A stretch of DNA of 38,171 bases, taken from a virus. The notes under the pieces were generated by a model. That model was not told where the DNA came from. It did not search any database and saw only the letters and a list, made by a program, of their open reading frames with translations. Below are positions 108 to 34,339 of this stretch, piece after piece. The DNA lies in IMG/VR virus record IMGVR_UViG_3300007517_000168, positions 1 through 38,171 of that record. The stretch is one strand, 5' to 3'. The first letter of the stretch is position 1, and the number at the start of each line of letters is the position of its first letter. The position numbers and the translations under genes were made by a program.

Positions 108-308
108 ATGAACATGAAGCACCAAGACCTTCTCGTTGCAGTTTCCCACGCTATCATTGCCCACGATGCCTCTTTGATGATGACCTTGACAAAACTCTTG
201 GGTCTATTGCCTGATCGGGACATCGTAAAACTCTGGAGCGAGGTTTCAGCTATACTGAAGCCACACGAAATCAACTGGTATAGGAACCACCTAAGCGACC
301 ATGCGTAA
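108..308 (+). CDS. Small hypothetical protein, 66 aa
   Basis: No family is recognised. The predicted protein is largely helical, with a hydrophobic first half and a Trp-containing C-terminal part. Its stop region overlaps the start of the next plus-strand gene by 8 bp, as translationally coupled phage genes do. This supports both being real. Two in-frame ATG codons lie two codons apart at the start, so the exact start is uncertain. No clear Shine-Dalgarno sequence is seen. The pair runs head-on into the leftward sigma-factor operon. Confidence 0.5.
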   Translation: MNMKHQDLLVAVSHAIIAHDASLMMTLTKLLGLLPDRDIVKLWSEVSAILKPHEINWYRNHLSDHA

Positions 309-498
309 ATACAAAGTAGAGATTGCTTGCACGTTTGACAGATTGTACGAAGTAGGGGAGATCATAGAGCTCCCCGATAGTTCAGCGAGTTCCTTGGCTT
401 CCTTTGGTTGCTTGTCTGAACTTGACGCTGATACCAAGAAGCTCGACTCTAAGGGCAAGAAGATCGAACTGACCACGACTAAGCCAACTGTCGATTGA
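301..498 (+). CDS. Small hypothetical protein, 65 aa, SH3-like phage accessory type
   Basis: The first ~40 residues follow a pattern common in small phage structural or accessory proteins: a basic beta-strand start, a YEVGEIIEL turn, then an alanine/serine helix before a hydrophobic strand. The last 25 residues are charged and low in complexity. The gene overlaps the preceding one by 8 bp. Its last 117 bp overlap the 3' end of the sigma-factor gene on the opposite strand. Function is not assigned; the fold comment is inference from residue pattern. Confidence 0.5.
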   Translation: MRKYKVEIACTFDRLYEVGEIIELPDSSASSLASFGCLSELDADTKKLDSKGKKIELTTTKPTVD

Positions 499-1179
499 GG
501 AACCACTAGGTCTTTTAATCTCCAGTTCACCAAATTCGACCAGTTCTCCATTCTCGTAATAGAAGGAAGACTGGTCGATATTTTCTATCACCCCTGTCTT
601 CATTGCCCCACAGTTTTCCACGGCTTGAACGGCAAGGTCAATGTCTGCCACGTCAACTCCTAGAGCTTCGGCGGTCTTCTTCTTTGATCCACTAACCCTG
701 TCTGTTTTGATGGCTTTGAAATACAACTCATAGAAATTCCTAGGGACTTTGACGGCTTGCCCCTTATCCCTGATGTAGTGGAGAAGCCTGCCCTTGAGTT
801 GGTGGGTGGCAAAGGTGGAGAACTTAATACCTCTGTCTGGGTTGAATCTGTCAGCCGCTAAGGTCAATGCTAGAAAAGCCTGCTGCTCCATGTCGAGATA
901 AGGGAAAGGACAGAGGGGATGTTGAGCTACTTGGTGAGCCGCTTTCCTCCCCAGATTAAGATTATTGACAACCAAGGAATCCCTAGCCTTCTGAGTCAGC
1001 CTAGAAATTATCGGGGTCACACAGAAACTGGGACGATTGAAATGGCTGTGTTCATCCCAGTCTTTTGCCAAGGAAAGAAGGCTGTCCTTGAACTCATTGG
1101 GAATACGGATTACCGTAGTCGGTTGAGACTGCCATTGAGAATGGTGTCCCTTCAGGAGCTTGCTATTACGATTAGACAT
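382..1179 (-). CDS. Phage-encoded sigma-70-family factor without a recognisable region 4
   Basis: This 265-residue protein would direct RNA polymerase to specific promoters. Residues ~92-147 match sigma region 2: a DMEQQAFLALTLAADRF helix, then NPDRGIKFSTFA, an HYIRDKG element and a KVPRNF end, most like the SigB/SigF/SigG group. Residues ~149-205 could be region 3. A normal factor ends in a region-4 helix-turn-helix that reads the -35 box. The tail here (205-265) shows none, and other frames of the tail did not restore one. Residues ~20-45 form a short strand-helix segment (VIRIPNEF) of the type seen in RHH-like proteins. It is the last gene of a leftward operon with a kinase and two receivers, 34 nt after the receiver stop. 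The 3' end overlaps a plus-strand gene by 117 bp. Confidence 0.82.
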   Translation of the reverse strand: MSNRNSKLLKGHHSQWQSQPTTVIRIPNEFKDSLLSLAKDWDEHSHFNRPSFCVTPIISRLTQKARDSLVVNNLNLGRKAAHQVAQHPLCPFPYLDMEQQAFLALTLAADRFNPDRGIKFSTFATHQLKGRLLHYIRDKGQAVKVPRNFYELYFKAIKTDRVSGSKKKTAEALGVDVADIDLAVQAVENCGAMKTGVIENIDQSSFYYENGELVEFGELEIKRPSGSSIDSWLSRGQFDLLALRVELLGISVKFRQATKGSQGTR

Positions 1180-1213
1180 ACTAAGCCCGTCAAATGGTTG
1201 TTACAACCTCATC

Positions 1214-1816
1214 CTAGCCTATTACGCTTAATTTGTCTCGGACATACTGAAGCAACTTAATCAGCCCGTCTATCTGCAAAGTTACCAATAGGCTAAGGAA
1301 TCCGAGAATCCAAGGGTTCAATTTTAGCCACGAGATGAACTGGCTGATAGTCACTGAATTAACACTGAGATTCGTTGGCTTCTCATCGATCTGTTTTATC
1401 CTCTCCTTCAATTGCTTAAGAAGGGAAGCATTCTCTGCGATAGCTAACACGGTTGTAACATCCGGTGCAGAGCCTACTCCCGGCAAGATTAGTCCCTGAG
1501 TGCTGAGGTTGTACGGGAGGTCTCCATCGGTTCCTTGAGACTCATCGGGGAACATTGACATCGAGTAGATCACTGCGATGTTGTTGCCCACCTCCTTGAG
1601 CCTCATCCGCAGACTGGCGATGTTATGTTGGGGGTCAACTCCCGGCATCCTCAAGTCTAGGAAGACAAGCCAGATATCAGGGAAGTTGTCAATGGCGGTG
1701 TGGGCTTGTTCCATAGTCTCGCAACAAATGACGTGGCTAGACTTGGCTCTCTCGATTCTGTGGCTGAGAGCTTCTAGGTTGGAAGCAGTGTCATCAATGA
1801 TTAGTATAGAGGGCAT
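1214..1816 (-). CDS. Receiver-domain protein with C-terminal membrane segment
   Basis: Residues 1-125 form a CheY-like receiver. The acidic pair is D8/D9 and the predicted phospho-acceptor is D54, in a FLDLRMPG context. A helical linker follows at ~126-150. A strongly hydrophobic stretch at ~167-190 (WILGFLSLLVTLQ) looks like one transmembrane or membrane-associated helix, followed by an amphipathic end. There is no DNA-binding output domain. The start overlaps the end of the preceding response regulator by 16 bp, so translation is probably coupled. A receiver tied to the membrane next to a sigma gene could sequester or release a partner on phosphorylation; that role is inference. Confidence 0.75.
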   Translation of the reverse strand: MPSILIIDDTASNLEALSHRIERAKSSHVICCETMEQAHTAIDNFPDIWLVFLDLRMPGVDPQHNIASLRMRLKEVGNNIAVIYSMSMFPDESQGTDGDLPYNLSTQGLILPGVGSAPDVTTVLAIAENASLLKQLKERIKQIDEKPTNLSVNSVTISQFISWLKLNPWILGFLSLLVTLQIDGLIKLLQYVRDKLSVIG

Positions 1817-2208
1817 GGTAGTAGGGAGTGTTCGAGAAAATAAGAGAGGGTAGCTTTGAGTGATGTCTTTAGTTTCTTTACCCCTGATTTGTGGATGTAA
1901 GCGTTGGCTCCTAAGAGATAGGCTTTTGCCACGTCAGAGTTCTCACTGGAAGAGGACAAGACGATGATGGGTGTGTAGATGCCCGGACGGACCAACTCCA
2001 GTATTTCAAACCCGGTCATTAAGGGCAGGCTCAAGTCAAGGAGAATCAGATCAAATGGTCGCTCCCTGAGATTACGCCAAGCCTTCCTGCCATCGGTTAT
2101 GAATTCGGGATAGGCGACTATACCACTGGAAGCACTGAACTCTTCGATTATCCAGCGAATGATCGTCTGCATATTTGCGTCGTCTTCAATGACTAATACG
2201 TTTACCAT
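1801..2208 (-). CDS. Single-domain CheY-like response regulator
   Basis: The 135-residue protein is a stand-alone receiver domain. Acidic residues D9/D10, the phospho-acceptor D58 (in LLDLSLP), a serine switch position near S85 and the conserved K107 are all present. No output domain follows. It should take phosphate from the kinase encoded just upstream, whose 3' end it overlaps by 23 bp. It could act as a phosphate relay or bind another protein such as the sigma factor or the membrane receiver. The family assignment is secure; the partner is inferred from operon position. Confidence 0.88.
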   Translation of the reverse strand: MVNVLVIEDDANMQTIIRWIIEEFSASSGIVAYPEFITDGRKAWRNLRERPFDLILLDLSLPLMTGFEILELVRPGIYTPIIVLSSSSENSDVAKAYLLGANAYIHKSGVKKLKTSLKATLSYFLEHSLLPCPLY

Positions 2209-3136
2209 CTCTAGGAATCCTAACTATAATTTTAGTGCCTTCGCCTTCGATGCTTGAAACCGAGATGTCGCCACTGTGTTGTTGTACGACCCGCTTCGCT
2301 ATAGCTAGACCCAACCCTGACCCTGAATATTGATCTGTAGAATGCAACCTGTATCTAGGCTCAAAGACCCTCTCAATGAACTCTTCGGGAATCCCAATGC
2401 CATTATCCTCGACAGTCATTGTTACGTGGGGAATGTCGTAGATATCCTCGGTGGCAATGGTCGCCTTGACAATCGGAGAGTGCCCTTCATACTTTGGTTG
2501 GAACTTAATGGCATTGCCCAGTAGGTTCAGAGTTACTTGAGCTAATCGGGCTTTGTCTCCGATGACATACTGCCCATTGCCTTCAATGATTATCTTAGTG
2601 TTCTCAGGGATTGAGGGGGAGAGTCTTTCCACTGACAGGGTGACTAATTCACTAAGTACCACAGGTTGAGCCACTGTCCGACTTGCTCCGATTAGCAGGG
2701 AACTATGCTCAAGGAGTTCAATGAGATCAGTGATTGCCTTGCCTGTTTTCTGCTCCCAGCCAAGGCATTGTATTTCAGTGAAAAAGCTGATAGCGGTAAT
2801 ATGCGTCATAGCATCATGTCGGAGAACTGTTCTACTGAATTCCTCTTGGCTTAGTTTGTCCTCGATAATCTTTGAGATGTCAGTGTAAAGAAGGATAAGT
2901 TCCCCCTCTCCTTTCTTAACGAGGATTTGCCAATGAGTCCCATTGAGACATTGCTCCACTGTCATCTCAGGCTGGGACGAAGTAAGGCATCGATCAATCC
3001 AGCGTTCCTTGAATACTTCGCCGACTATGTAACCCAGTTCAAGGAACCGAGGACTTGCCATGACAACAATGGCATCATCGTTAATCACGGCACAAGGGAT
3101 AGGCAGAGTCGGAAATAGGGGTGAGTGTTTTGACAT
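2186..3136 (-). CDS. Soluble PAS-like sensor histidine kinase
   Basis: Residues ~10-90 look like a PAS-type sensor. The dimerisation/phosphotransfer helix carries the predicted phospho-histidine H107 (TVLRHDAMTH). An HATPase domain follows, with an N box (NLLGNAIKF, ~204-212), a G1 box (DNGIGIP, ~244-250) and a G2 box (GSGLGLAIAK, ~272-281). No transmembrane segment is present, so it should sense a cytoplasmic cue. The start has a GGGGAAAATA motif 15 nt upstream, shared with the virion genes, and the first copy of the ~195-bp repeat beyond it. It heads a four-gene operon: kinase, regulator, membrane receiver, sigma. The signal sensed is unknown. Confidence 0.9.
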   Translation of the reverse strand: MSKHSPLFPTLPIPCAVINDDAIVVMASPRFLELGYIVGEVFKERWIDRCLTSSQPEMTVEQCLNGTHWQILVKKGEGELILLYTDISKIIEDKLSQEEFSRTVLRHDAMTHITAISFFTEIQCLGWEQKTGKAITDLIELLEHSSLLIGASRTVAQPVVLSELVTLSVERLSPSIPENTKIIIEGNGQYVIGDKARLAQVTLNLLGNAIKFQPKYEGHSPIVKATIATEDIYDIPHVTMTVEDNGIGIPEEFIERVFEPRYRLHSTDQYSGSGLGLAIAKRVVQQHSGDISVSSIEGEGTKIIVRIPRDGKRISH

Positions 3137-3151
3137 TTGTTGTCTTTTTTC

Positions 3152-3161
3152 TATTTTCCCC
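3152..3161 (-). promoter_or_regulatory. GGGGAAAATA late-type motif upstream of the kinase-sigma operon
   Basis: On the minus strand GGGGAAAATA ends 15 nt before the kinase ATG. The companion TGGCTCTC lies about 40 nt further upstream, inside the edge of repeat copy 1. The same motif precedes eleven other genes here, most of them virion genes. It resembles the -10 element of SigF-type promoters (GGnrAnAnTR). Confidence 0.6.
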
Positions 3162-3203
3162 GAATGTTCATTTCAGGGAAAAGGCAGACCGGAATCGGAG
3201 TAG

Positions 3204-3396
3204 GAGAGCCAGTAATCGGACGAGAAAATGTAATCGGCAGCGAAATGGCTGAAGCCCTTGTTCAGTAAGGTCTAAGCCCGTCCACGAGAATCCCAAAACT
3301 ATACAGATAATAAGGCTTCTCATGGACGCTAATATAGAGGGTTTTATTAAGAAAGTCTCTCTAATAAATAAGCCCTTTTTATATACACTGGCTCTC
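3204..3396 (+). repeat. ~195-bp intergenic repeat, copy 1 (direct)
   Basis: Both ends are a perfect 10-bp inverted pair, GAGAGCCAGT and ACTGGCTCTC. Inside are two TAATCGG heptamers (3213-3237) and a long inverted repeat GTCCACGAGAA (3280-3290) with TTCTCATGGAC (3317-3327). Copies 2 and 3 at 13078-13276 and 27978-28175 share this order. The right end of this copy has diverged and overlaps the 3' end of the 64-aa gene at 3347-3541. No target-site duplication is seen, and flanking bases (GGAGTAG) are also shared with copy 3. Confidence 0.85.
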
Positions 3397-3541
3397 TAAT
3401 CTTGATCCATTCTTTATTAATTAATACTTCGGTTTGAAACGGGAATATTCCTCGTAGGTTATCCGGCTTGAAACCGGACAACCCTTCTCGATCAAGTAAT
3501 CGGTTCCTGTTTGAAACAGGAGTCGGTTTTGATTCTGACAC
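3347..3541 (-). CDS. Small hypothetical protein downstream of terminase, 64 aa
   Basis: The frame opens with GTG immediately after the TerL stop codon at 3545, so translation by read-on ribosomes is likely. The product is basic, with no recognised family. Its last ~16 codons lie inside repeat copy 1 (3204-3396). In copies 2 and 3 the equivalent sequence has a stop soon after the GAGAGCCAGTA end, so this extended C-terminus is specific to copy 1. It may be a genuine small gene or a chance frame. Confidence 0.4.
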   Translation of the reverse strand: MSESKPTPVSNRNRLLDREGLSGFKPDNLRGIFPFQTEVLINKEWIKIREPVYIKRAYLLERLS

Positions 3542-3544
3542 AGG

Positions 3545-4933
3545 TTAATAATGGTAAGTACCCACTCTTGCTCTAGGTGTCGCCGTGGTTAACTCTGCAA
3601 AGGCTCCCGTAGATGCGTCAACGGGATCAATGACTCCCATTGGAAATGAGTTAAGACAATCTAGGTATCTGTCGTTCCAGTTGGCTCTGACCAGCAAGAC
3701 ATTGCCACTCATTGATTCCCTAGCAAAGGGTCTCGCTCTGGTTACTTTGTCTCCCAAGGGTTTCACTGCCCCAACATCGTAACCACCGAGCAATATCTTG
3801 ATATGGGCTTCGTCTCGCTTCCCTGCTGAGCCACCCTCAAGTTCCCAGCGCACCTTAGTCCACTGCCCATCTCTGGCTGCCGTGTAGTGGAGAAGTTTAT
3901 CTCCTTCTGTCGGGCTGACCTGTTCCATGATCACATCGAGAACCCACCACTTGTTATCAACGAATCTCATCTTGACTCCAGCAGTGAAACAAGCCTTGGC
4001 ATTCACAGCCGCAGCCGTTGCCGCTAAGTCCCAGAATCTCACCGTCACACCACCTTCGGGAGCAGAATCAACGATAGGGAACCAAGTTCTGTTGAAGACA
4101 ATCCCTGCACCTCCCTGAGATGGGATACAGTCAAGCTCCTGTCCGGCTCCAGTCCCGTAGTATTCGTAAGTGGTTTTAATCCAGTCCTGCTCTATTTCGG
4201 CAGAGTAAGGTTTGCCAGAGACTTTCTGAATCTGCCTGAACAGTCCTTCGTCCACAGCAGCCAAGAAAGGTATCTCGTGATAGGAATAATTCTTCTTGCC
4301 TTCCTTGATTTCATTGACAAGCTCATAGAAGCGGCTCTCTACGCCGAAGTGGGTGGAAATGATACTCACCTGCCCTCCCCACATTAAGAGGGCTAGGGCG
4401 GCATCTATAAGCTCCTGTAGTGAATCATGGTGAGCAGCCTCGTCGATGATAACCCTGCCCTTCTTTCCTCGGAGGTTCGTTGGTCTCGAAGAAAGAGCCA
4501 CGATTTCATTGCCAGAGGACAATCTGATTCTGAAAGTAATAATATCCTTGTCTGCATCACGGACAACTGACTCATCCCATCGAGTCCCTATGACCTGCCA
4601 TCGCTTGATCCACCAGCCACAGTCAACAATGAACTGCCTTGCCATGTCCAAGTTGTAGCCAATGTAATACGTTGATTGCCCGTTACGACGCATTCCCTTA
4701 TTGACTGACTTTGCCGCTTCCGCCCATGACAACCCAATCCGCCTAGACTTCAGGCATACCTTCACTGGAGAATCGTCCTGACTCCATCTCTTCTGGTATG
4801 GGAGGAAAATCCCCTTCGATTCCGAGGTCTTCTCGCTCAATGTGGTCAGCGAACTCGTCGGAGACACCTCCATCGGAATCGCCTTCAGACTGGAGTTGCT
4901 TAGATGCGGAATGTGAAACAAGGTTGTATCCAT
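3545..4933 (-). CDS. terL: Terminase large subunit (Mu gp28-like packaging ATPase/nuclease)
   Basis: The protein is the motor that packages phage DNA into proheads and cuts it. A degenerate Walker A reads KSRRIGLSWAEA (~62-73). Walker B is VIIDEA (~161-166), followed by a coupling motif STHFG (~193-197). The C-terminal half starts its nuclease fold at FWDLAATAA (acidic residue D302). This set is typical of Mu-type terminases, and 462 residues is close to the family norm. The drawn start would overlap TerS by 190 bp. Conserved-looking sequence begins near residue 42 (IFLPYQKRW), so a later start (M21 at 4873 or a TTG near residue 32) is quite possible. Confidence 0.9.
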   Translation of the reverse strand: MDTTLFHIPHLSNSSLKAIPMEVSPTSSLTTLSEKTSESKGIFLPYQKRWSQDDSPVKVCLKSRRIGLSWAEAAKSVNKGMRRNGQSTYYIGYNLDMARQFIVDCGWWIKRWQVIGTRWDESVVRDADKDIITFRIRLSSGNEIVALSSRPTNLRGKKGRVIIDEAAHHDSLQELIDAALALLMWGGQVSIISTHFGVESRFYELVNEIKEGKKNYSYHEIPFLAAVDEGLFRQIQKVSGKPYSAEIEQDWIKTTYEYYGTGAGQELDCIPSQGGAGIVFNRTWFPIVDSAPEGGVTVRFWDLAATAAAVNAKACFTAGVKMRFVDNKWWVLDVIMEQVSPTEGDKLLHYTAARDGQWTKVRWELEGGSAGKRDEAHIKILLGGYDVGAVKPLGDKVTRARPFARESMSGNVLLVRANWNDRYLDCLNSFPMGVIDPVDASTGAFAELTTATPRARVGTYHY

Positions 4934-5453
4934 AAGCCTTTACCAAGAGAATAGCTCTGTTAATGTCGTAGTAATCCGCAGAGATAGCGGTGCGTTCTCC
5001 TTTGATTGCTAGGTCTGCAATCTTCATCCAGTCGAGCATTATCTTAGCCACTTTCCCTATCTCGTCGATATCCCCGTTATCTTGGAGTCCTTCGAGCTTG
5101 TCCTCCAACACCCCGATAATCTCGCTGGCAAACCCTCTCCCCCTAGCAAAGACTCCCTCGTGTTCCTTGAGTAGGGTATCCCACTTCTCAACCAAGGCAG
5201 CAGCATTCCCCGTTAATTCAATGCCTAGGGCTTGGTTAACTGTATCAGGGGCTATCAATGACGCTTCCTTGTAACCATCGGCAGAGGTGTCCCTGAACTT
5301 CTTAGCCTCAGCCCATTTATTGTCAGTTCTCCATCGAGACAACGTGCCTTCAGGGATGCCTATCTTTTTTGCGATGAGTGAGAGGCTGTTGTTCTCTTCA
5401 ACGAACAGACACCTAGCCCTCTCTTTTAGCCTATCGGATTTGTCTCTATTCAT
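4743..5453 (-). CDS. terS: Terminase small subunit (HTH DNA-recognition protein)
   Basis: The 236-residue protein has an N-terminal helix-turn-helix at ~19-45 (SLIAKKIGIPEGTLSRWR), as in terminase small subunits that bind the packaging site. The middle is helical, fitting an oligomerisation region, and the C-terminus is acidic. It lies directly upstream of the large subunit and overlaps it extensively. The ATG follows a short tandem ATTTTTATTC repeat (minus-strand leader) with no strong Shine-Dalgarno. A degenerate GGGGATAATA lies 60 nt upstream. Confidence 0.75.
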   Translation of the reverse strand: MNRDKSDRLKERARCLFVEENNSLSLIAKKIGIPEGTLSRWRTDNKWAEAKKFRDTSADGYKEASLIAPDTVNQALGIELTGNAAALVEKWDTLLKEHEGVFARGRGFASEIIGVLEDKLEGLQDNGDIDEIGKVAKIMLDWMKIADLAIKGERTAISADYYDINRAILLVKAYGYNLVSHSASKQLQSEGDSDGGVSDEFADHIEREDLGIEGDFPPIPEEMESGRFSSEGMPEV

Positions 5454-5693
5454 TTTTATTCATTTTTATTCAGTTGTCTGAATATTTTCGATTGCCATTC
5501 AGTTCGTTAATTCTATTATCCCCGAAACTCAATGACCTCTAGGCTTACGAAGAAATGAATATTATTCATCCTCTGATTCTCCCCGGACACAAAGAAAGCC
5601 TAAGAGTTCCCCTGAACAGTTAGACTTTCTTCTGGCTCTCCGATTATCTTGACACCCGAAGAGAAGAGAGCCAAGTAGAAAGAGGGAAGGATT
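5454..5693. promoter_or_regulatory. Intergenic region between CyRepA1 and TerS with paired octamers
   Basis: This 240-bp gap holds the late-motif octamer twice in inverted orientation: TGGCTCTC at 5633-5640 and GAGAGCCA at 5666-5673. They could form a stem around a 25-nt loop downstream of the CyRepA1 stop. Nearer TerS is GGGGATAATA (minus strand, 5514-5523), one base off the GGGGAANATA motif. It may hold the terminase promoter and the end of the replication transcript. No gene was seen in it. Confidence 0.4.
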
Positions 5694-11672: not shown

Positions 11673-11682
11673 GGGGAAGATA
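11673..11682 (+). promoter_or_regulatory. GGGGAAGATA late-type motif upstream of 11737
   Basis: The motif lies 54 nt before the ATG at 11737, the longest gap of the set, and has no TGGCTCTC companion. A TACAAT sequence 15 nt downstream could be an alternative sigma70 -10 element. Confidence 0.4.
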
Positions 11683-11736: not shown

Positions 11737-12102
11737 ATGCCCAACATTTCTTTTTCTTCCAATGGAGCCGTCTTCACGATATCTGCCCCTGCCTTGGTTT
11801 CCCGACTCCCTGAGATTAGCCGGATTGCCCTAGAGGAAGGATACTCTGCTGAAAAGTTTATCAAGTTCGACTTCATCAGGAAAGGGCAGAACGGCTCAGG
11901 AATCTTTTTTATCTCGAAGCCAAAGAACAATCAACATTCGGCTTTTTGTTATTTCTATTCCGCCGATAGCAGGGGTCGGGATTATCCGGCGGAAATCAAG
12001 GACTTCGTGGCAACCTCTTATTCGACTAGGACAACCCAGTTAGAGGAGTTGATCACACAGATGTTCAGGGGCATGGAACGATTTAACAAAGGGAGAAAAT
12101 AA
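11737..12102 (+). CDS. Paralogue 1 of an unknown tandem pair, 121 aa
   Basis: The ATG at 11737 is preferred to a TTG seven codons earlier because GAGAGG sits just upstream. The N-terminus (SFSSNGAVF, then LVSRLPEI) matches that of the next gene (TFLSNGASF, LVREHPEI), so the two are probably diverged duplicates. The rest is mixed alpha/beta with no known motif. Its stop overlaps the next ATG by one base, so they are co-translated. Function is unknown. A GGGGAAGATA motif upstream may place it with the virion regulon. Confidence 0.65.
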   Translation: MPNISFSSNGAVFTISAPALVSRLPEISRIALEEGYSAEKFIKFDFIRKGQNGSGIFFISKPKNNQHSAFCYFYSADSRGRDYPAEIKDFVATSYSTRTTQLEELITQMFRGMERFNKGRK

Positions 12103-12967: not shown

Positions 12968-13077
12968 TGGTGGTTTCCTCTTTGTGGTTATGTCCCCATT
13001 GTAGCGCAAGGAAAACAAGAGCGTATCCACCTAGGGGTAGGTCTTTATGATTAGACTGTAAGGCAATATTAAGAATA

Positions 13078-13276
13078 GAGAGCCAGTATAGAAAAGGGTA
13101 ATGTCTGTATTATAGAGAGGCTTTTTATGTAAGAAAAACACTCTATATTAGCGTCCATGAGAAGCCTTGTTGTCTATATAGTTTTGGCATTCTCGTGGAC
13201 GGGCTTAGACCCTGCTGAATAAGGGTTTCAGCCATTTACCCGCCGATTACATTTTCTCGTCCGATTACTGGCTTTC
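13078..13276 (-). repeat. ~195-bp intergenic repeat, copy 2 (inverted)
   Basis: This copy is inverted relative to copies 1 and 3. Its ends are GAGAGCCAGT (13078-13087) and ACTGGCTTTC (13267-13276, one change). The internal inverted repeat is GTCCATGAGAA (13153-13163) with TTCTCGTGGAC (13190-13200). Identity with copy 3 continues past the end into AGAATAGAGAGCC. It separates the divergent genes at 12967 (leftward) and 13333 (rightward). Confidence 0.85.
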
Positions 13277-13309
13277 TGAGTCCATTGTCTTTCCGGGATT
13301 CCGAGGGTT

Positions 13310-13319
13310 GGGGAAGATA
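13310..13319 (+). promoter_or_regulatory. GGGGAAGATA late-type motif upstream of 13333
   Basis: The motif lies 13 nt before the ATG. A TGGCTTTC variant of the companion octamer is 33 nt upstream, at the edge of repeat copy 2. Confidence 0.55.
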
Positions 13320-13332
13320 AAAAGAAAGCCCT

Positions 13333-13998
13333 ATGCCTTCAACTAGCGACGGAACCATCAATCGACTCAACCGCAGCTTTAAGTATGTCGGAGTCACAAT
13401 GCACATGGCACTCTTTGATTTGACCCTGTATTCTGCGACAATCACTGCGACAGTCGTGGGAAACATAATCAACTCCGCCGCTCATGGACTAGCCAATGGC
13501 GTAAGAGTCAGACTGACCTCAACAGGAAACCTACCCAATCCGTTAAGCACTGGGGTCGACTACTTTGTTATTGGAACCACAGCAGGAACTTACCAGTTAG
13601 CCCTAGCTAGAGGTGGTTCTGCTATTGCCTTAATCACAGCCGGAACAGGAACAATCACTGCCTCGGAACAAATCCCTAACGTCACCGACTCTCTGCCAGT
13701 GTGGGCTAGGTTGGAAGTTGACTACAGAGGATCAGCACGACAAGTCGTTTCCTTCTCAGCAGCCTCCCCAGTACTGGTAGGCACTGGCTGGGGCTATCCA
13801 CCAGTCGTCTGTCGGTTCAGTCCCACGACTGCCTCTGTTAACTATCGCCTAATGGGAATCATCATGGACGGCAATGCAACCCGTGGAAATACCACGGGCT
13901 ACATCGACTTCTTCACTGACTATCAGTTCTCGATTACCATCGGCAACGGAAGCAATGCCGACTTCGTTTATTCCCCAGTCTTCACGACCGGGATATAA
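13333..13998 (+). CDS. Phage virion protein, probable tail/fibre domain
   Basis: The 221-residue protein is rich in Thr, Ser, Gly and Ala with alternating beta-strands. Residues ~48-100 (HGLANGVRVRLTSTG, then DYFVIGTTAGTYQLA) form a small beta domain often found in phage tail and fibre proteins. There is no signal peptide or enzyme motif. It is a single-gene unit with its own GGGGAAGATA motif 13 nt upstream and converges on the gene ending at 13982, overlapping it by 17 bp. The exact place in the particle is unknown. Confidence 0.6.
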   Translation: MPSTSDGTINRLNRSFKYVGVTMHMALFDLTLYSATITATVVGNIINSAAHGLANGVRVRLTSTGNLPNPLSTGVDYFVIGTTAGTYQLALARGGSAIALITAGTGTITASEQIPNVTDSLPVWARLEVDYRGSARQVVSFSAASPVLVGTGWGYPPVVCRFSPTTASVNYRLMGIIMDGNATRGNTTGYIDFFTDYQFSITIGNGSNADFVYSPVFTTGI

Positions 13999-14200
13999 CA
14001 GGGAATTTAACTAGCGTATTATAATGAGTGCCCTGTCCGGGATTTATGACAGGGTACACTTCTTCCTCGCACAAGGGATTCGTTAGCCTGATGATAGGCT
14101 CATCAGTGTGGACTAATAGTATTCCGCAAAAAATCCCCTGAGCAGAGATGTCACAGGAGATAGCGAAAACTTCCCCGCCTTCAAGACAAGGATAATTCAT
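13982..14200 (-). CDS. Small hypothetical protein, 72 aa, coupled to the tail tube gene
   Basis: The ATG overlaps the stop of the upstream gene (TAATG), so it is translationally coupled to the probable tail tube protein. Four Cys residues are spread over a mixed hydrophobic sequence. No family is recognised. It overlaps the end of the convergent virion gene at 13998 by 17 bp. Confidence 0.5.
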   Translation of the reverse strand: MNYPCLEGGEVFAISCDISAQGIFCGILLVHTDEPIIRLTNPLCEEEVYPVINPGQGTHYNTLVKFPVISRS

Positions 14201-14889
14201 TAGGGAGCCAATAGAGGGGGAGTATCTTCGACTGCTCCAGAAATCGTCAGTTCGACATCTGCTGTCACAAAATCAGCAGCCGCACTGGAGACACTGGCAT
14301 CAGCTAAGACAGCCTTCCCAAGAATGATCCTACCTCTGGAGTAATCAACACTAGGAGCCTCATATTCTAACATTGCCCAAACCGTGTCTTGGGCAAAAAA
14401 AGCCTCGTGGCAAATCTTCAGTCCGGGGTTTGAGTGATGGAGAAATCCAGGAGCCGCAATACTAGCTGAGATTTCAGTAGTCACGGTTTGTTTGAACCCA
14501 CCAGTATTCAATGTGGAGATGTCAGAGGTTGCAGCGGAGGCTGTATAGTCGACTGAGGAACGATCAAAGATTTCAGGGGGAAACTGAGCGGCGGCAGCGA
14601 CAGCAATGGCAGACTCCACAGGGGTTACGACTAAAGTAGTCGCACCGCTTAGAGCGGTCTCTGCAAGTTTGACAACAATTTCTTTTCCATTGACAGCCCT
14701 GAATAATAACCAGTTACCTTTATCAATTTGTTGAGTAATTCCAGATACCGCTAGAGACGTGGCAAGACGGGCGGCAGCAGTTGTGACTGTGACGGTAGCA
14801 ATAGTAGTGGAAGGCTTTATCTCTCCCAAGCATACTCGGATGATAGAACGCCAACCCTTTCTTGGTACGTGCGAGGCAATTATTCCCAT
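14200..14889 (-). CDS. Probable major tail (tube) protein
   Basis: The 229-residue Ala/Thr/Val-rich protein contains a segment at ~40-95 that alternates strands around GNWLLFRAVNGKEIVVKL and GATTLVVTP. This is a fold pattern common in tail tube and related phage structural proteins. It has no Cys-rich or catalytic feature. AGGAGA lies just before the ATG, and GGGGAAAATA lies 23 nt upstream. Neighbours are small head-tail or tail genes on the same strand, which fits a tail gene. A capsid or decoration role cannot be excluded. Confidence 0.5.
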   Translation of the reverse strand: MGIIASHVPRKGWRSIIRVCLGEIKPSTTIATVTVTTAAARLATSLAVSGITQQIDKGNWLLFRAVNGKEIVVKLAETALSGATTLVVTPVESAIAVAAAAQFPPEIFDRSSVDYTASAATSDISTLNTGGFKQTVTTEISASIAAPGFLHHSNPGLKICHEAFFAQDTVWAMLEYEAPSVDYSRGRIILGKAVLADASVSSAAADFVTADVELTISGAVEDTPPLLAP

Positions 14890-14912: not shown

Positions 14913-14922
14913 TATTTTCCCC
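14913..14922 (-). promoter_or_regulatory. GGGGAAAATA late-type motif upstream of 14889
   Basis: The motif sits 23 nt before the ATG, in the short gap after the preceding gene stop. There is no TGGCTCTC companion. It would add a promoter inside the 16201-13982 gene run, boosting the presumed abundant tail protein. Confidence 0.5.
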
Positions 14923-15730: not shown

Positions 15731-16201
15731 TTAGGCGATGTTTTCTATTTCTACAGCAGTAAATGAGACTTGAAAGAATCTTCCGGCAGCACTCAACTCA
15801 GGAGGGCTTAGTAAGACAGAGAAGGCAGCGAAGTAAGCAACGAGTCCATCGGTAACAATGGGGACATCCCCAGGTGCTATTGCCCTGGTCGTCGGTGCAA
15901 GTTCAACGAATCTCTCTGTTCTATCAACGAGTGTTATTCCCAGTGGTTGTCGGAGTCTCCTCTTTCTGTCCTGCACTAGGAACATCCCCTTTATCAGTTC
16001 AGCCTCAGTCTCCGTCATTAGAGCCGTGACTTCCCATGAATACTTGGGGCGATGCAGAACTCCCCTAGCTGTCGCTGCCCCTACCACAGTGTACTCCACG
16101 CTAGTTGGTGCATTGATGACTTGGGCTCGAAGGCTGGTGATTAGCCCTACCTTGAGTAGCCATGTATCTAAGCTCAATTCAATGGAGCGGGGCTTGGACA
16201 T
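15731..16201 (-). CDS. Hypothetical virion protein heading a leftward operon, 156 aa
   Basis: Alternating strands, an Ala-rich middle and a final strand VSFTAVEIENI suggest a beta-sandwich tail-type structural protein. No enzyme motif is present. It is first in the tightly packed operon 16201-13982. Its ATG is only 10 nt from a GGGGAATATA motif, with TGGCTCTC 13 nt further up, in a divergent control region shared with the gene at 16336. Confidence 0.55.
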   Translation of the reverse strand: MSKPRSIELSLDTWLLKVGLITSLRAQVINAPTSVEYTVVGAATARGVLHRPKYSWEVTALMTETEAELIKGMFLVQDRKRRLRQPLGITLVDRTERFVELAPTTRAIAPGDVPIVTDGLVAYFAAFSVLLSPPELSAAGRFFQVSFTAVEIENIA

Positions 16202-16211
16202 CTTTTTGTTT

Positions 16212-16221
16212 TATATTCCCC
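16212..16221 (-). promoter_or_regulatory. GGGGAATATA late-type motif, leftward arm
   Basis: The motif is 10 nt before the ATG at 16201. TGGCTCTC (plus-strand GAGAGCCA, 16235-16242) lies 13 nt upstream of it. It mirrors the rightward arm at 16296, giving a symmetric divergent promoter. Confidence 0.6.
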
Positions 16222-16295: not shown

Positions 16296-16305
16296 GGGGA
16301 ATATA
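16296..16305 (+). promoter_or_regulatory. GGGGAATATA late-type motif, rightward arm
   Basis: TGGCTCTC (16271-16278) is 17 nt upstream. The motif is 12 nt before an ATG at 16318 and 30 nt before the ATG at 16336. The two octamers of this region could also pair as an 8- to 9-bp stem. Confidence 0.6.
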
Positions 16306-16335
16306 GGTAAGAAGTATATGATAACGAGGTCAACC

Positions 16336-16605
16336 ATGAATAGACAAGAGCTTATAGCTATCTCCCGCTACCAACAGAAGAGTGCCTACCAACAGAGTGA
16401 TACCGCTCAAAGGGCAGCCTCGATGAACCCAGCCCTCACAGGTGTCGCTGCTGGCACAGACCCATCAACTGGTCGGCAAATTCTCAAGACATCTGACGGT
16501 GGAACTATCCAAGGGACTTCGATAGCGAAGTCTCCACTTAGTCCGGGTGCTGTTGTCCCAGCGACATTATCAGGGTCAGCCGGAGTAGTTCTAGATTCTT
16601 TTTAA
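16336..16605 (+). CDS. Stand-alone copy of a virion N-terminal module, 89 aa
   Basis: The sequence aligns from its first residues with the N-terminus of the 922-residue protein at 25153-27921. Shared elements are the QQKxAY motif near residue 15, a DPxTGxxI stretch, a DGG, and a GxxVxAT near residue 70. The larger protein continues far beyond, while this one stops. The start at 16336 has GAGG 7-8 nt upstream and matches the start of the homologue; an in-frame ATG at 16318 is an alternative. It might be a separate head or tail peptide, or a competitor of the large protein. Confidence 0.65.
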   Translation: MNRQELIAISRYQQKSAYQQSDTAQRAASMNPALTGVAAGTDPSTGRQILKTSDGGTIQGTSIAKSPLSPGAVVPATLSGSAGVVLDSF

Positions 16606-21089: not shown

Positions 21090-21376
21090 CTACAGTCATC
21101 TACAGCCATCTACAGCCATCTACTATATAACACTGAAAGCCTAGAATCCTTTGATATCTAGGCTTTCAGTGTTATTGGCGTAAATCTACAATAATCTACA
21201 GGACTTCTACAGTTCCTTCTAGGGCTTCTACAGTTATCAACAGCTATCTACAGGACTTCTACAGTTCCTTCTAGGGCTTCTACAGTTATCAACAGCTATC
21301 TACAGGACTTCTACAGTTCCTTCTAGGGCTTCTATAGTTATCAACAGCTATCTACAGGACTTCTACAGTTCCTTCT
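21090..21376. repeat. CTACAG iteron cluster (10-bp and 52-bp periodic)
   Basis: About thirteen CTACAG hexamers occur here. The first three (from 21090) are spaced exactly 10 bp apart. From ~21195 they belong to a 52-bp unit, with GGACTTCTACAG starting at 21201, 21253, 21305 and 21357; the last unit is partial, ending near 21376. Variant CAACAG sites occur once per unit. Such iterons mark plasmid origins or centromere-like partition sites. They directly follow the ParM-RHH-FtsK operon and contain no gene. Confidence 0.85.
21127..21175. repeat. Perfect 19-bp inverted repeat with 11-nt loop
   Basis: ATAACACTGAAAGCCTAGA (21127-21145) is exactly complementary to 21157-21175. It lies 45 bp after the ATPase stop and between two blocks of CTACAG iterons. 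Only a weak T content follows, so a terminator role is possible but unusual. It could instead be an origin or recombination hairpin. Confidence 0.8.
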
Positions 21377-23453: not shown

Positions 23454-23463
23454 GGGGAAAATA
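23454..23463 (+). promoter_or_regulatory. GGGGAAAATA late-type motif for the portal gene
   Basis: The rightward copy is 28 nt before the portal ATG. Its mirror image at 23482-23491 faces left, so the two motifs form a 10-bp inverted repeat and their transcripts would overlap. Confidence 0.55.
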
Positions 23464-23481
23464 GGATTAATAACTTATAGA

Positions 23482-23491
23482 TATTTTCCCC
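23482..23491 (-). promoter_or_regulatory. GGGGAAAATA late-type motif for the scaffold gene
   Basis: The leftward copy lies 46 nt before the scaffold ATG and directly abuts the portal ATG on the other strand. If it is a core promoter, occupancy by RNA polymerase would exclude the portal promoter. Confidence 0.55.
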
Positions 23492-25152: not shown

Positions 25153-27921
25153 TTACCTAAATGATGGTTGAGCGATTGCGTTGTGAATATAGACGACTCC
25201 CGTCCTTTGGTCGGTCCCATCGGAGATAGTGTATCTCAGTTTTGCTGTGTATGCCCCGTGAGGTCGACCAGTTCTGACGTAGTTATCAGCCCAGACCGCA
25301 GTGAAAGCCGCAGCGTCAAACCCAGTGAAGCTCCCTAGGGGATTGAAACCCCAAGCACTGCCTAGTCGAGCGGGTGTAGGCAAGAGGGCTCCGCCGGGAA
25401 CCAGTATAACACCGTCCTCAACACCTACGGATTCAAACTCCACATTGACCAGAGTTCGGGTTCTCCCTTCCATAACTTGGGGGATATTGCCCCACGCATC
25501 ACCAGCCCCGATATTAAGGGTCTGGGGAGGTAAGTTAATTTGTTGTACCATGTTTCCCCGGAACTCATAGAGCAGGTTCGGGGTAATCATTGACGCATTG
25601 AGTGTAATGGTATTGCTTGCAGTACTGGCTCCATCATCTATTGTGTAGTTGAAAACAATCGTGTACAAGTTAGTGGAATCGCCCTTATAGACAAAGGTTA
25701 GAGCATCGGTATCCCAACTCAATACAGAGCCAGAACCACCCGCCGTCACAGAGGCAAAAGTAATGTTTGTCAGCTTCGGAATCAGAGCCGGATCGGAACC
25801 CTGAATGAACGGGGAGAGGTTGAACGTGTGGTTCGTAGTGGAGACGCCGAATCTCGTGGTCGGGATGTCGAACTTCGCAGGTTTAGCTTGGGCAGGATCG
25901 ATCGGGTTGTAGTCGTGCGCCCATATCTTTTGCCAGTCGTCCTGATTGGAAGTGACCTCTTCTGGGTTAGTGAACTTCTCTGGCTCTGAAAGAGTCATCG
26001 TCTCCCTGTCTAACTCCCAAGTGGTAATCGTACACCAAGGACGGTTCTTAAGCTCTAGGGCTTTGTACCCGTATTCCTTGGAAGCCTTGACGGTCACAAA
26101 GATTTTCTCTGGTGTGCTGCTCAGGTAAGCCTCATAAGGATCGTCCTTGTTCAACTCGGTGATCTTGATCGGAGTCTCGGAGATTCCACCCAGCCAGAAT
26201 ACGATTATCGCTTTCCCCGGCTTCTTTGTACTCTTGTTCCGAGGGGACAGCCAAAAGGGAAGGTTCTGTCCAAGGGTTGTGTAGGCTTCCCTTCCTTGAT
26301 CGTTGCCAGAGTCTCTATTCGGATGAGTCCAAGGAACGTAGGCTGCTCTGAACGCTGCCTTGTCCACGATATTGTCGTCCTCTGGGCTTAGGAATTCGGC
26401 TACTCTAGCGAGACTGGCGGTTCCCGATCTGTAAATGAAGCCATCCTCACGGAAGGTCGAATTCGGGAGTAGGTCAATAACTACGTTCCCTTTGAACTCT
26501 GGGTTGAGCTTACTACCCTCCCAGTGTAATAGATACCCATGAGCCTCATCTTTTACCCCTACAGCATCGGAAGGAGGAGCAATGAACCCCAACTGCATCA
26601 ACCTGTCCCCTTCCCCTTGGTAAGTGTAGCCTGGTCCAGATGCGTTAGACCCCGGCTCATGCGAAAAGCGGGTCACTCCGTCCATGACAGACCAACTACC
26701 GAGGGTTGGCAGGAGGTTTGGCAATGGCATCCTGATTTTACCGTCAGGATGCTCTATGGCACTTGAGAGTCCATGAGCATACATAGATACAGATGGACTT
26801 ACTGGGTTTGGAGCGTTGAGCTTGCTTACTGTGAATGTTTTATTGGCTGAATCGCCATAGACCCAAGGAACCCACTCAACTTGGAGGGACACTCCGGTTG
26901 TCGGTAGAATTATATCTTGACATACCCTTTGCACGATGCCTTTTCGGGTCTCGGAGAATGGGCAAATGTAACTTCCACTAAGGTGGGGGAGAATCATAGA
27001 TGCGTCTGCACCTGCTAAGAGATCAGCCGCAGCCGTCGCAAAAATGTCCCCCCGCCAGAAGGTGATGCCATACGCTAAACTCATCCCCAGTGTAGGATGC
27101 TTGATGGCAGTTGCTCCGGTTATAGCTACCTCATTGTTCAGAGCTACAGCTTGGGCGTACTGAGTATCCAAAAAGGAATGAACACCCGGATCGCTCCAAA
27201 AAGTGGCGGGATACCCGTCCATCCTGAAGATCACAGAAACCCCCGCCCTTAACAACTCGATAATCGTTGAGTTAATGAAAGAGATGGGATGTACCTTGTC
27301 TCCAGCCTGAAGGAACGGGACAAACGGATCGCCGAACTCTGATACCCTCACTACGCAGACGACGACATCAGCGATATCTTTGCGCCCGTCAAGGATATCG
27401 TAGAGAGGAGTCCACCTGAGTTCTACCGCCTCTCCTAACAGATTCCCCGGCTCTTTCTCCCCTGAGCCATCGCACACTGCCTGAAAGCCTGTCTGCCCTC
27501 TTACCGTGACTTTCTTGTAAGTAGTGCAGCGACATTCAACTGGCTCTTCCTTGTTGTCATCGCTAATATATAGAATAGCCATGCTGCCGGAGTCTAATTC
27601 CTTGGCGGGTTTCCTAGTCCTGCCTCCTTGTTCGTCTTCGACATTCTCTGGACGATCAGGGGCATTGAGCCAGTCGATAGCAGTAGTACCACCGGGAGCT
27701 TCGGTAGCCCTAACGAATGTTCCCTTAGGATGCCCACACTTGAAAATCCTTTGAGCCGTAGCAGAACCACCATCCGGCAGGGCGACAATATCTAACCCAG
27801 TGCCGGGATCAATGGCATCGAGTCTCGCCGAAGTCATTGGAGGCTCTTGGGAGAGAGAGTCTGTGTATGCTTGCTTCTGCTGGTGTCGAAGAATGGCTAG
27901 TTGCTCTTCTCTGCTCGTCAT
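25153..27921 (-). CDS. Large virion protein with shared N-terminal module, 922 aa
   Basis: The start at 27921 is chosen over a frame reaching 28059, because GGGGAATATA lies 15 nt upstream and the N-terminus then matches the 89-aa protein at 16336. Residues 1-~80 are that shared module (QQKQAY, DPGTG, DGG). The middle ~350 residues include a Cys-containing stretch (VECRCTTYK) and an aromatic-rich domain. The last ~250 residues look like Ig/cadherin-type beta modules (SVTAGGSGSVLSWD; FNYTIDDGASTAS). No enzyme motif was found. It is most likely a tail, baseplate or receptor-facing protein. Confidence 0.6.
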   Translation of the reverse strand: MTSREEQLAILRHQQKQAYTDSLSQEPPMTSARLDAIDPGTGLDIVALPDGGSATAQRIFKCGHPKGTFVRATEAPGGTTAIDWLNAPDRPENVEDEQGGRTRKPAKELDSGSMAILYISDDNKEEPVECRCTTYKKVTVRGQTGFQAVCDGSGEKEPGNLLGEAVELRWTPLYDILDGRKDIADVVVCVVRVSEFGDPFVPFLQAGDKVHPISFINSTIIELLRAGVSVIFRMDGYPATFWSDPGVHSFLDTQYAQAVALNNEVAITGATAIKHPTLGMSLAYGITFWRGDIFATAAADLLAGADASMILPHLSGSYICPFSETRKGIVQRVCQDIILPTTGVSLQVEWVPWVYGDSANKTFTVSKLNAPNPVSPSVSMYAHGLSSAIEHPDGKIRMPLPNLLPTLGSWSVMDGVTRFSHEPGSNASGPGYTYQGEGDRLMQLGFIAPPSDAVGVKDEAHGYLLHWEGSKLNPEFKGNVVIDLLPNSTFREDGFIYRSGTASLARVAEFLSPEDDNIVDKAAFRAAYVPWTHPNRDSGNDQGREAYTTLGQNLPFWLSPRNKSTKKPGKAIIVFWLGGISETPIKITELNKDDPYEAYLSSTPEKIFVTVKASKEYGYKALELKNRPWCTITTWELDRETMTLSEPEKFTNPEEVTSNQDDWQKIWAHDYNPIDPAQAKPAKFDIPTTRFGVSTTNHTFNLSPFIQGSDPALIPKLTNITFASVTAGGSGSVLSWDTDALTFVYKGDSTNLYTIVFNYTIDDGASTASNTITLNASMITPNLLYEFRGNMVQQINLPPQTLNIGAGDAWGNIPQVMEGRTRTLVNVEFESVGVEDGVILVPGGALLPTPARLGSAWGFNPLGSFTGFDAAAFTAVWADNYVRTGRPHGAYTAKLRYTISDGTDQRTGVVYIHNAIAQPSFR

Positions 27922-27936
27922 AAACTTCTTTAGTTT

Positions 27937-27946
27937 TATATTCCCC
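27937..27946 (-). promoter_or_regulatory. GGGGAATATA late-type motif upstream of 27921
   Basis: The motif is 15 nt before the ATG. TGGCTCTC at the edge of repeat copy 3 lies 31 nt upstream. This supports 27921 over 28059 as the true start. Confidence 0.6.
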
Positions 27947-27977
27947 AATAAGAAATCGGGGAGAGGAAATGGAGTAG

Positions 27978-28175
27978 GAGAGCCAGTAATCGGACGAGAA
28001 AATGTAATCGGCGGGTAAATGGCTGAAACCCTTGTCCAATAGGGTCTAAGCCCGTCCACGAGAATCCCAAAACTATACAGAGAATAAGGCTTCTCATGGA
28101 CGCTAATATAGAGTACTTTCTTGAGTAAAAAGCCTCTCTATAATACAGACATTACCCCTTTCTATACTGGCTCTC
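27978..28175 (+). repeat. ~195-bp intergenic repeat, copy 3 (direct)
   Basis: The ends are GAGAGCCAGT (27978-27987) and ACTGGCTCTC (28166-28175). The internal inverted repeat is GTCCACGAGAA (28054-28064) with TTCTCATGGAC (28091-28101). Two TAATCGG words lie near the left end. The right half is closest to copy 2, with TATTCTTAATATT continuing beyond the end. It separates divergent genes at 27921 and 28301. Confidence 0.85.
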
Positions 28176-28264
28176 TATTCTTAATATTTATCCTAATTAC
28201 GGGTTCGAGATCGTTGAGTGCGAAGATGCCTCTCAGGATAGATGTTATTCGTTTACGTTATTGT

Positions 28265-28549: not shown

Positions 28550-28979
28550 CCTTCTTCTCTGGGGCTGCCAATCTGAGCAAGTCCCAGTCTAGTGCGTCTC
28601 GACCCCAAGCAGGCATTTTCGGTTTTAACTCAATGGCTAACGCAGCAACCTCTGGATCGACAATCTCCAGAGCCTTCATCCGATTCAATTTCTTCTCCCA
28701 CGGATTAACCATGTCGTAATAATCCTGTGGCTTCTTCCATCCGGCAGCCCCAGCAATAAAGACCCCTAGGGTAGCAAGGGGGGAATGGTTAGCGCTCAAG
28801 GCTTGCATCTCAGCCTCTCGCAATTCCTTGAGTGCTTTTTCTATTAAATGCAAAGGACAACTGGCAAAGTTTGCGGCACTGAAGGTATCGCAGTTAGGGT
28901 AGCCATGTTGAATCTGTAGGAAGACACTGCCCCAATCTACTTCTTCTCCGCTTCCACCTTCACCTCTTTTTTTTTCTCG
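28509..28979 (-). CDS. Tail chaperone extension (GT-like), read by -1 frameshift
   Basis: This frame has no ATG near its start. It is open from just after a stop at 28980-28982, through the A9 run at 28967-28975, to 28509. It begins as EKKRGEGGSGEEVDWGSVFL and includes a well-formed domain (NCDTFSAANFASCPLHLIEKA). It can only be translated fully if ribosomes shift by -1 from the gene at 28937-29326, giving a fusion of about 272 residues. This copies the lambda gpG/gpGT arrangement. A TTG at 28853 could start a shorter form but would lose the conserved-looking first part. Confidence 0.72.
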   Translation of the reverse strand, partial: REKKRGEGGSGEEVDWGSVFLQIQHGYPNCDTFSAANFASCPLHLIEKALKELREAEMQALSANHSPLATLGVFIAGAAGWKKPQDYYDMVNPWEKKLNRMKALEIVDPEVAALAIELKPKMPAWGRDALDWDLLRLAAPEKKASVALDSGSTSSP

Positions 28980-29326
28980 TCAGGAACCGACTCTACCCAT
29001 CGAGCTTGCTCTTTCAAGAAGAAGTCGAGGATGTCCATCATCATTGATTCAGTCATAGGATGTCCTTGAATATCCATGATCTCTTCGTCTGTGGTCTTCT
29101 CGTCGAGCTTGAATCTAAACCTCAGCAGCGCACACACTAGCGAGAGAGAGTACTGGGTCATCGTAGCAGTCTCGTTCTGTAGGGTCAGGTTCAGTGCAGC
29201 CCACACTTGGAACTCTTGCCAAGTCAGGGAGCCGTACCGGGGAATCTCAATAGAGATACCCATAGAGTCGGTGATTTTCTCAGTCCTCTGTAGGATTCCA
29301 GAGACAATAAAGGGGAGCTTAGACAT
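28937..29326 (-). CDS. Tail assembly chaperone (G-like), 129 aa
   Basis: The start is the ATG at 29326. A TTG at 29368 lies across the GGGGAAGATA motif and is unlikely. The protein is mainly helical and ends in a charged Lys/Glu tail encoded across an A9 run. Such proteins bind the tape measure during tail assembly, and its position beside the tape measure gene supports this. Here it follows the tape measure instead of preceding it. A fraction of ribosomes should shift at the A9 run into the overlapping -1 frame. Confidence 0.72.
   Translation of the reverse strand: MSKLPFIVSGILQRTEKITDSMGISIEIPRYGSLTWQEFQVWAALNLTLQNETATMTQYSLSLVCALLRFRFKLDEKTTDEEIMDIQGHPMTESMMMDILDFFLKEQARWVESVPDEKKKEVKVEAEKK
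28967..28975 (-). other. A9 slippery site for programmed -1 frameshifting
   Basis: On the minus strand the zero frame reads GAG AAA AAA AAA GAG. The heptamer A AAA AAA lets both tRNAs re-pair after slipping back one base. The -1 frame is open from here to 28509 and has no start codon of its own before the TTG at 28853. Confidence 0.72.
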
Positions 29327-29356: not shown

Positions 29357-29366
29357 TATCTTCCCC
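29357..29366 (-). promoter_or_regulatory. GGGGAAGATA late-type motif upstream of tail chaperone
   Basis: The motif is 30 nt before the ATG at 29326. TGGCTCTC (plus-strand GAGAGCCA, 29379-29386) lies 12 nt upstream, the tightest pairing in the window. It gives the chaperones a promoter separate from the tape measure. Confidence 0.6.
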
Positions 29367-34260: not shown

Positions 34261-34270
34261 TATTTTCCCC
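34261..34270 (-). promoter_or_regulatory. GGGGAAAATA late-type motif upstream of tape measure
   Basis: The motif is 15 nt before the ATG, with TGGCTCTC (34291-34298 on the opposite strand as GAGAGCCA) 20 nt upstream. It is half of a compact divergent promoter with the motif at 34330. Confidence 0.6.
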
Positions 34271-34329: not shown

Positions 34330-34339
34330 GGGGAAAATA
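34330..34339 (+). promoter_or_regulatory. GGGGAAAATA late-type motif upstream of 34350
   Basis: The motif is 10 nt before the ATG. Upstream is TTGGCTAC, a partial form of the companion octamer. The distance to the start codon leaves almost no leader. Confidence 0.55.

Follow-up and report, generated by a model that had tools for sequence, protein, structure and literature searches.

A predicted SigF-type late sigma factor without domain 4 and its candidate promoters in a virus record that also encodes a histidine kinase and two receivers

What might a virus control with a histidine kinase, two receiver proteins, and a sigma factor encoded in a single operon? We examined this question in a linear virus record of 38,171 bp that lacks end repeats; it was analyzed over its whole length and is referred to below as the window. 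On its minus strand, from position 3136 down to 382, the genes for a soluble histidine kinase, two receivers, and a sigma factor follow one another, preceded by the terminase genes:

3545 to 5453, minus strand: TerL (3545 to 4933) and TerS (4743 to 5453), conserved upstream neighbors of the sigma gene in related phages
2186 to 3136, minus strand: HK, soluble histidine kinase (HATPase_c, 1.3e-27; candidate H-box LRHDAMTHI; N, G1, and G2 boxes readable)
1801 to 2208, minus strand: RR1, stand-alone receiver (Response_reg, 1.2e-18; DD, LLDLSLP, and K present)
1214 to 1816, minus strand: RR2, divergent receiver (Response_reg, 1.9e-5, below the Pfam gathering score)
382 to 1179, minus strand: sigma factor of the SigF type with domains 2 and 3 and without domain 4 (Sigma70_r2, 2.6e-8)

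The ATPase boxes of the kinase are intact, and no part of the protein is strongly hydrophobic; its hydropathy peak of 1.40 indicates a soluble protein, in agreement with an earlier note on this DNA, which had also correctly listed two receivers. RR1 is a canonical stand-alone receiver, RR2 has apparently lost the conserved Lys and ends in a hydrophobic helix (residues 168 to 189, hydropathy peak 1.78), and no known output domain was found in either. The description of the four genes as overlapping holds for HK and RR1 (23 nt) and for RR1 and RR2 (16 nt) but not for RR2 and the sigma gene, which are 34 nt apart. In the terminator scan, no minus-strand hit falls within the operon.

The replication protein of the window scores 216 bits against CyRepA1 (curated cut-off, 200), its tblastn matches, as listed by genus, are on cyanobacterial plasmids, and the best matches of the portal protein are from cyanophages; the host is therefore very probably a cyanobacterium. 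Virion and packaging genes include those for TerL, portal, scaffold, tape measure, and major tail protein. No major capsid gene was recognized in the window, although scaffold and portal are present, and it may lie beyond the ends of the fragment. There is also a ParM/actin-like match (2.3e-5, below the cut-off). The window is probably part of a cyanobacterial siphovirus genome, and this virus probably persists as a plasmid as well; a switch from plasmid to lytic phage, as the earlier note had proposed, is plausible and would fit the CyRepA1, ParM-like, and virion genes. Tandem repeats of 52 bp at 21184 to 21376 adjoin an FtsK-like gene and could be iterons of an origin or a centromere. No virion genes are annotated on the Crinalium and Nostoc plasmids that carry a related CyRepA1.

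The best family for the sigma factor is cyanobacterial SigF (PRK07408, 7.7e-22), with TIGR02980 also matching (6e-12), both far below the cut-off for full-length members; among PDB profiles, Bacillus SigF (1l0o_C) matches best. An AlphaFold model built with 24 aligned sequences is confident for domains 2 and 3 (residues 61 to 194), with a pLDDT of about 90 across most of domain 3 (residues 147 to 194), and aligns with the sigma subunits of holoenzymes over residues 61 to 196 only. The Pfam region 3 model has no match in this protein. Past residue 194, AlphaFold predicts no domain 4 but a single low-confidence helix (residues 235 to 247). Likewise, Pfam region 4 does not match the window sigma but does match a few of the 24 relatives in the alignment; the apparent loss of region 4 is common among the relatives. 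These results agree with the earlier reading of a sigma factor that has region 2 and no visible region 4, and the structure prediction suggested there for residues 148 to 265 yielded domain 3, then the helix, and no region 4. Sequence and model together identify this protein as a domain 4-less sigma factor of the SigB/SigF kind. The codons for its last 38 residues lie antisense to a convergent open reading frame (301 to 498, plus strand). A close orthologue was not found.

Single-protein scans with the sigma factor, the replication protein, and TerL found no relatives, and relatives were recovered with a portal profile. A related sigma is encoded in 10 of 12 portal relatives. Of 68 sigma loci in which terL could be detected, 54 have the sigma gene directly behind it (end of terL at most 1.5 kb upstream, mostly at most 120 nt, on the same strand). 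The same order is seen in S-CBS2 and has been described for P-SS2 (PMC2784084). In the window, TerS and TerL stand directly before the operon, with a GGGGAAAATA promoter, HK, RR1, and RR2 between TerL and the sigma gene; most simply, a signaling cassette would have entered a terL-sigma slot of ancient origin. The kinase and the receivers are encoded in none of the approximately 160 loci retrieved through portal or sigma, so this part is so far unique to the present record, and operon adjacency is what suggests gating of the sigma. The exact phrase “phage-encoded histidine kinase” returned no precedent in literature that lay mostly outside subscription journals, and broader wording yielded little there.

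Two side observations concern the sigma genes of the relatives. A C-terminal QxxLF is found in 28 of 74 sigmas, compared with about 3 of 854 other long open reading frames in the same loci, the tally with the sigmas included being 31 of 882; its carriers are the domain 4-less sigmas of S-CBS2-like cyanophages (loci L130 to L186, e.g., L132, L144, and L166). This end resembles the bacterial beta-clamp-binding motif, QL[SD]LF. The C terminus of T4 gp55 binds the clamp (PMC2988020), and together these data suggest clamp-coupled late transcription in cyanosiphoviruses, outside the T4-like phages, as a testable idea. In the window sigma, the candidate clamp-binding stretch, FDLL following Q237, is weak and falls inside the low-confidence helix. 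Further, TGGTANACT, which resembles the GGTAA of SigF, occurs about 30 nt upstream of the sigma gene and also before other genes (e.g., in L187 of S-CBS2, at 34468 on the plus strand, in L105 of G006, and in sigma loci), with 40 forward versus 2 reverse copies in the 74 sigma loci.

The strongest 10-mer pattern upstream of genes, both in the window and in the related record G001, is GGGGAANATA, whose exact copies read GGGGAAAATA, GGGGAAGATA, or GGGGAATATA. The sites are as follows:

3152 to 3161, minus strand: GGGGAAAATA, promoter element of the kinase-sigma operon
5514 to 5523, minus strand: GGGGATAATA, the 13th site, differing at one position and located before TerS
11673 to 11682, plus strand: GGGGAAGATA, upstream of an unknown gene (11737 to 12102, plus)
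13310 to 13319, plus strand: GGGGAAGATA, upstream of 13333 to 13998, plus (weak tail fiber-like match)
14913 to 14922, minus strand: GGGGAAAATA, upstream of the major tail protein gene (14200 to 14889, minus)
16212 to 16221, minus strand: GGGGAATATA, upstream of 15731 to 16201, minus; only 10 nt from motif end to ATG
16296 to 16305, plus strand: GGGGAATATA, upstream of 16318 to 16605, plus
23454 to 23463, plus strand: GGGGAAAATA, upstream of the portal gene
23482 to 23491, minus strand: GGGGAAAATA, upstream of the scaffold gene; forms a symmetric divergent pair with the preceding site, identical in G001
27937 to 27946, minus strand: GGGGAATATA, upstream of a large probable tail gene (25153 to 27921, minus)
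29357 to 29366, minus strand: GGGGAAGATA, upstream of 28937 to 29326, minus, the downstream neighbor of the tape measure gene
34261 to 34270, minus strand: GGGGAAAATA, upstream of the tape measure gene
34330 to 34339, plus strand: GGGGAAAATA, upstream of 34350 to 36956, plus (probable tail protein)

There are 12 exact copies, and 26 copies with at most one mismatch, compared with 8.6 ± 2.8 (maximum, 16) in shuffled sequences. All 12 exact copies are wholly intergenic, where intergenic DNA makes up 8.9% of the window, and every one of them is followed by a same-strand ATG 10 to 54 nt downstream (expected for 13.5% of random positions; counted for open reading frames of at least 75 codons on the strand of the motif). 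The motif heads virion-type operons (portal, scaffold, major tail protein, tape measure, and probable tail genes), operons without assigned function (including those starting at 11737 and 16318, plus strand), and the kinase-sigma operon, which therefore does share the motif of the virion genes, as had been claimed. It is not found before the rep, ParM-like, or FtsK-like genes or their operons.

In G001, whose portal is 91% identical, all 6 sites that allow comparison are conserved, and the symmetric pair of promoters separating portal from scaffold is unchanged over its 38 bp. Among the 22 related records searched, GGGGAANATA is absent or sporadic in 19, and three have 2 to 6 copies, with a systematic-looking distribution only in G001 (6 copies), the others having been counted without positions. 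Distant relatives carrying similar sigmas do not use this motif, and de novo searches for upstream motifs in G002, G004, G005, G014 to G017, and G020 gave nothing convincing. Besides G001, a scan for the symmetric pair hit two unrelated viral contigs; another 25 matches in genome contigs look like chance and were set aside. The predicted starts of the divergent pair (23454 to 23491) almost coincide.

Over the 13 sites, no -35 column or shifted hexamer rises above shuffles, as expected for a sigma factor without domain 4. Cyanobacterial SigF (Synechocystis), which autoregulates, recognizes TAGGC at -32 and GGTAA at -12 (PMC2758279). The window element has GGAA in the register of this GGTAA, with no -32 partner: TAGGC was not found at a fixed place upstream of the motif. 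The fit to the Bacillus subtilis SigF consensus, GGnrAnAnTR, that the earlier note had pointed out applies to the GGGGAAAATA copies but not to the GGGGAAGATA and GGGGAATATA copies, because the consensus requires A at position 7; with cyanobacterial SigF as the closest family, the latter is the better yardstick. An A-rich stretch follows the motif, with A in 12 of 13 sites at motif position +15 and in 11 of 13 at +16, where a start 6 to 7 nt past the element would fall. What looked like a very strong start-like signal weakened when the local A-rich leader was taken as the background (per-column p of about 0.01 and 0.05), so that the evidence for a start there is modest. If this reading is right, the virion mRNAs from the 16221 (minus) and 34330 (plus) sites would have leaders of merely 4 to 5 nt.

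Two other kinds of repeats were noted around these promoters. There are 20 copies of TGGCTCTC on both strands of the window, often as inverted pairs, and intergenic ones (e.g., 16241, minus; 16272, plus; 29385, minus; and 34297, minus) often lie 12 to 42 nt upstream of the promoter motif; this range of distances led us to reject TGGCTCTC as a -35 element, and it is possibly a regulator site. The other, about 230 bp long, contains a GTCCATGAGA/TCTCGTGGAC hairpin and has GGCTCTC ends facing outward; it is located upstream of three motif promoters (copies at 3190 to 3406, minus; 27954 to 28188, minus; and 13065 to 13300, plus), and one copy has an orthologous position in G001 (L103, 7616 to 7874).

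The explanation that we favor, with a probability of about 0.7, is that of a late sigma factor, GGGGAANATA promoters, and a kinase and receivers that time the onset. A SigF-type sigma that has lost domain 4 would bind the host core RNA polymerase and direct it to a single extended -10/-12 element, GGGGAANATA, and the A-rich start region, with no -35 element. Given that these promoters head the virion operons and that of the sigma itself, active sigma would amplify its own synthesis and turn on particle production. HK, RR1, and RR2, located between terL and the sigma gene, would set when the sigma acts; for example, the membrane-prone RR2 could serve as a docking or anti-sigma partner switched by the kinase. 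The parts of this scheme differ in strength. The sequence gives good support to a phage late sigma whose promoters lack a -35 element, and we consider it quite probable that this sigma reads GGGGAANATA and controls both the virion genes and itself. The earlier claim of such control is likely to be right, since a domain 4-less sigma of the SigB/SigF kind, the absence of a -35 element, and a motif limited to virion-type operons, some unknown ones, and the sigma's own all point to late-gene control with autoregulation.

Alternatively, a host sigma (SigF or a different group 3 factor) could read the motif, or another phage protein could activate it, with the phage sigma acting elsewhere. The GGTAA at -12 of host SigF (PMC2758279) is in line with this, and TGGCTCTC, upstream of several promoters at variable distance, could bind an activator; yet TAGGC is missing at a fixed -32 position and, apart from the operon of the sigma itself, the motif heads only probable virion genes; we consider this option improbable. 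Still less can be said for an RNA-level element of the 5′ leader, acting on translation or stability rather than as a promoter. The short distance to the start codons is what such an element would call for, but this distance varies widely while the A-rich downstream register is fixed to the motif, transcribed motifs of the 23454/23491 pair would fall in each other's leader, and Rfam gives no match; we regard it as very improbable.

The closest competitor grants that the sigma reads late promoters but gives the kinase and receivers a different job, for instance rewiring host signaling, and sees them as late genes that are merely co-expressed. No relative examined has them near the sigma, sigma-only control behind terL is the rule in the clade, both receivers lack output domains, and the promoter motif of the kinase is common to other late genes. 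Against it, HK, RR1, and RR2 sit exactly between terL and the sigma gene that ends the operon, and the tight overlaps suggest one unit. We rate this competitor at little short of an even chance. Phosphorylation gating of the sigma by the kinase and receivers, suggested by operon layout, is tentative and somewhat less probable than its competitor. As the kinase and receivers share the operon of the sigma, a signal may nevertheless decide the onset of particle making. The full version of the favored explanation, with a virus-encoded phosphorelay of kinase, receiver, and membrane-associated receiver gating a domain 4-less late sigma, so that passage from plasmid to virion becomes an input-sensitive, self-amplifying switch, appears rather unlikely; if true, the virus would carry a two-component switch of its own with which to leave the plasmid state.

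Post-translational control of sigma factors by kinases or receivers is found in SpoIIAB/RsbW partner switching, PhyR-NepR-EcfG, and RssB-sigmaS. Compared with these, the window has a two-component kinase and stand-alone receivers, and no PhyR-like sigma-mimic or anti-sigma domain was recognized in it. Cyanobacterial SigF shares the GG-A-rich -12 element with the window but needs TAGGC at -32, whereas the window has no fixed -32/-35 element and its sigma no domain 4. T4 late promoters, too, consist of a -10 element alone, followed by AT-rich DNA, and they occur in both orientations (PMC2988020). As is predicted for the window sigma, T4 gp55 lacks domain 4 and serves -10-only promoters before virion genes; however, it resembles sigma factors only distantly, depends on gp33 and the gp45 clamp, and reads a TATA box as its promoter. 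In the window, a minimal two-domain sigma would be paired with a promoter lacking a -35 element, and this outside the T4 family. The nearest counterparts are the group 3 (SigF-like) sigmas of P-SS2 and S-CBS2, located in the same slot behind terS-terL (PMC2784084), with a SigF-type domain 2 in common and a related portal; unlike in the window, no kinase or receivers are interposed, and the upstream regions carry TGGTANACT rather than GGGGAANATA. Such cyanosiphovirus sigmas have been noted since P-SS2 (2009), where they were said probably to serve a regulon then unidentified (PMC2784084); for one of them, the window gives a concrete, testable regulon and promoter.
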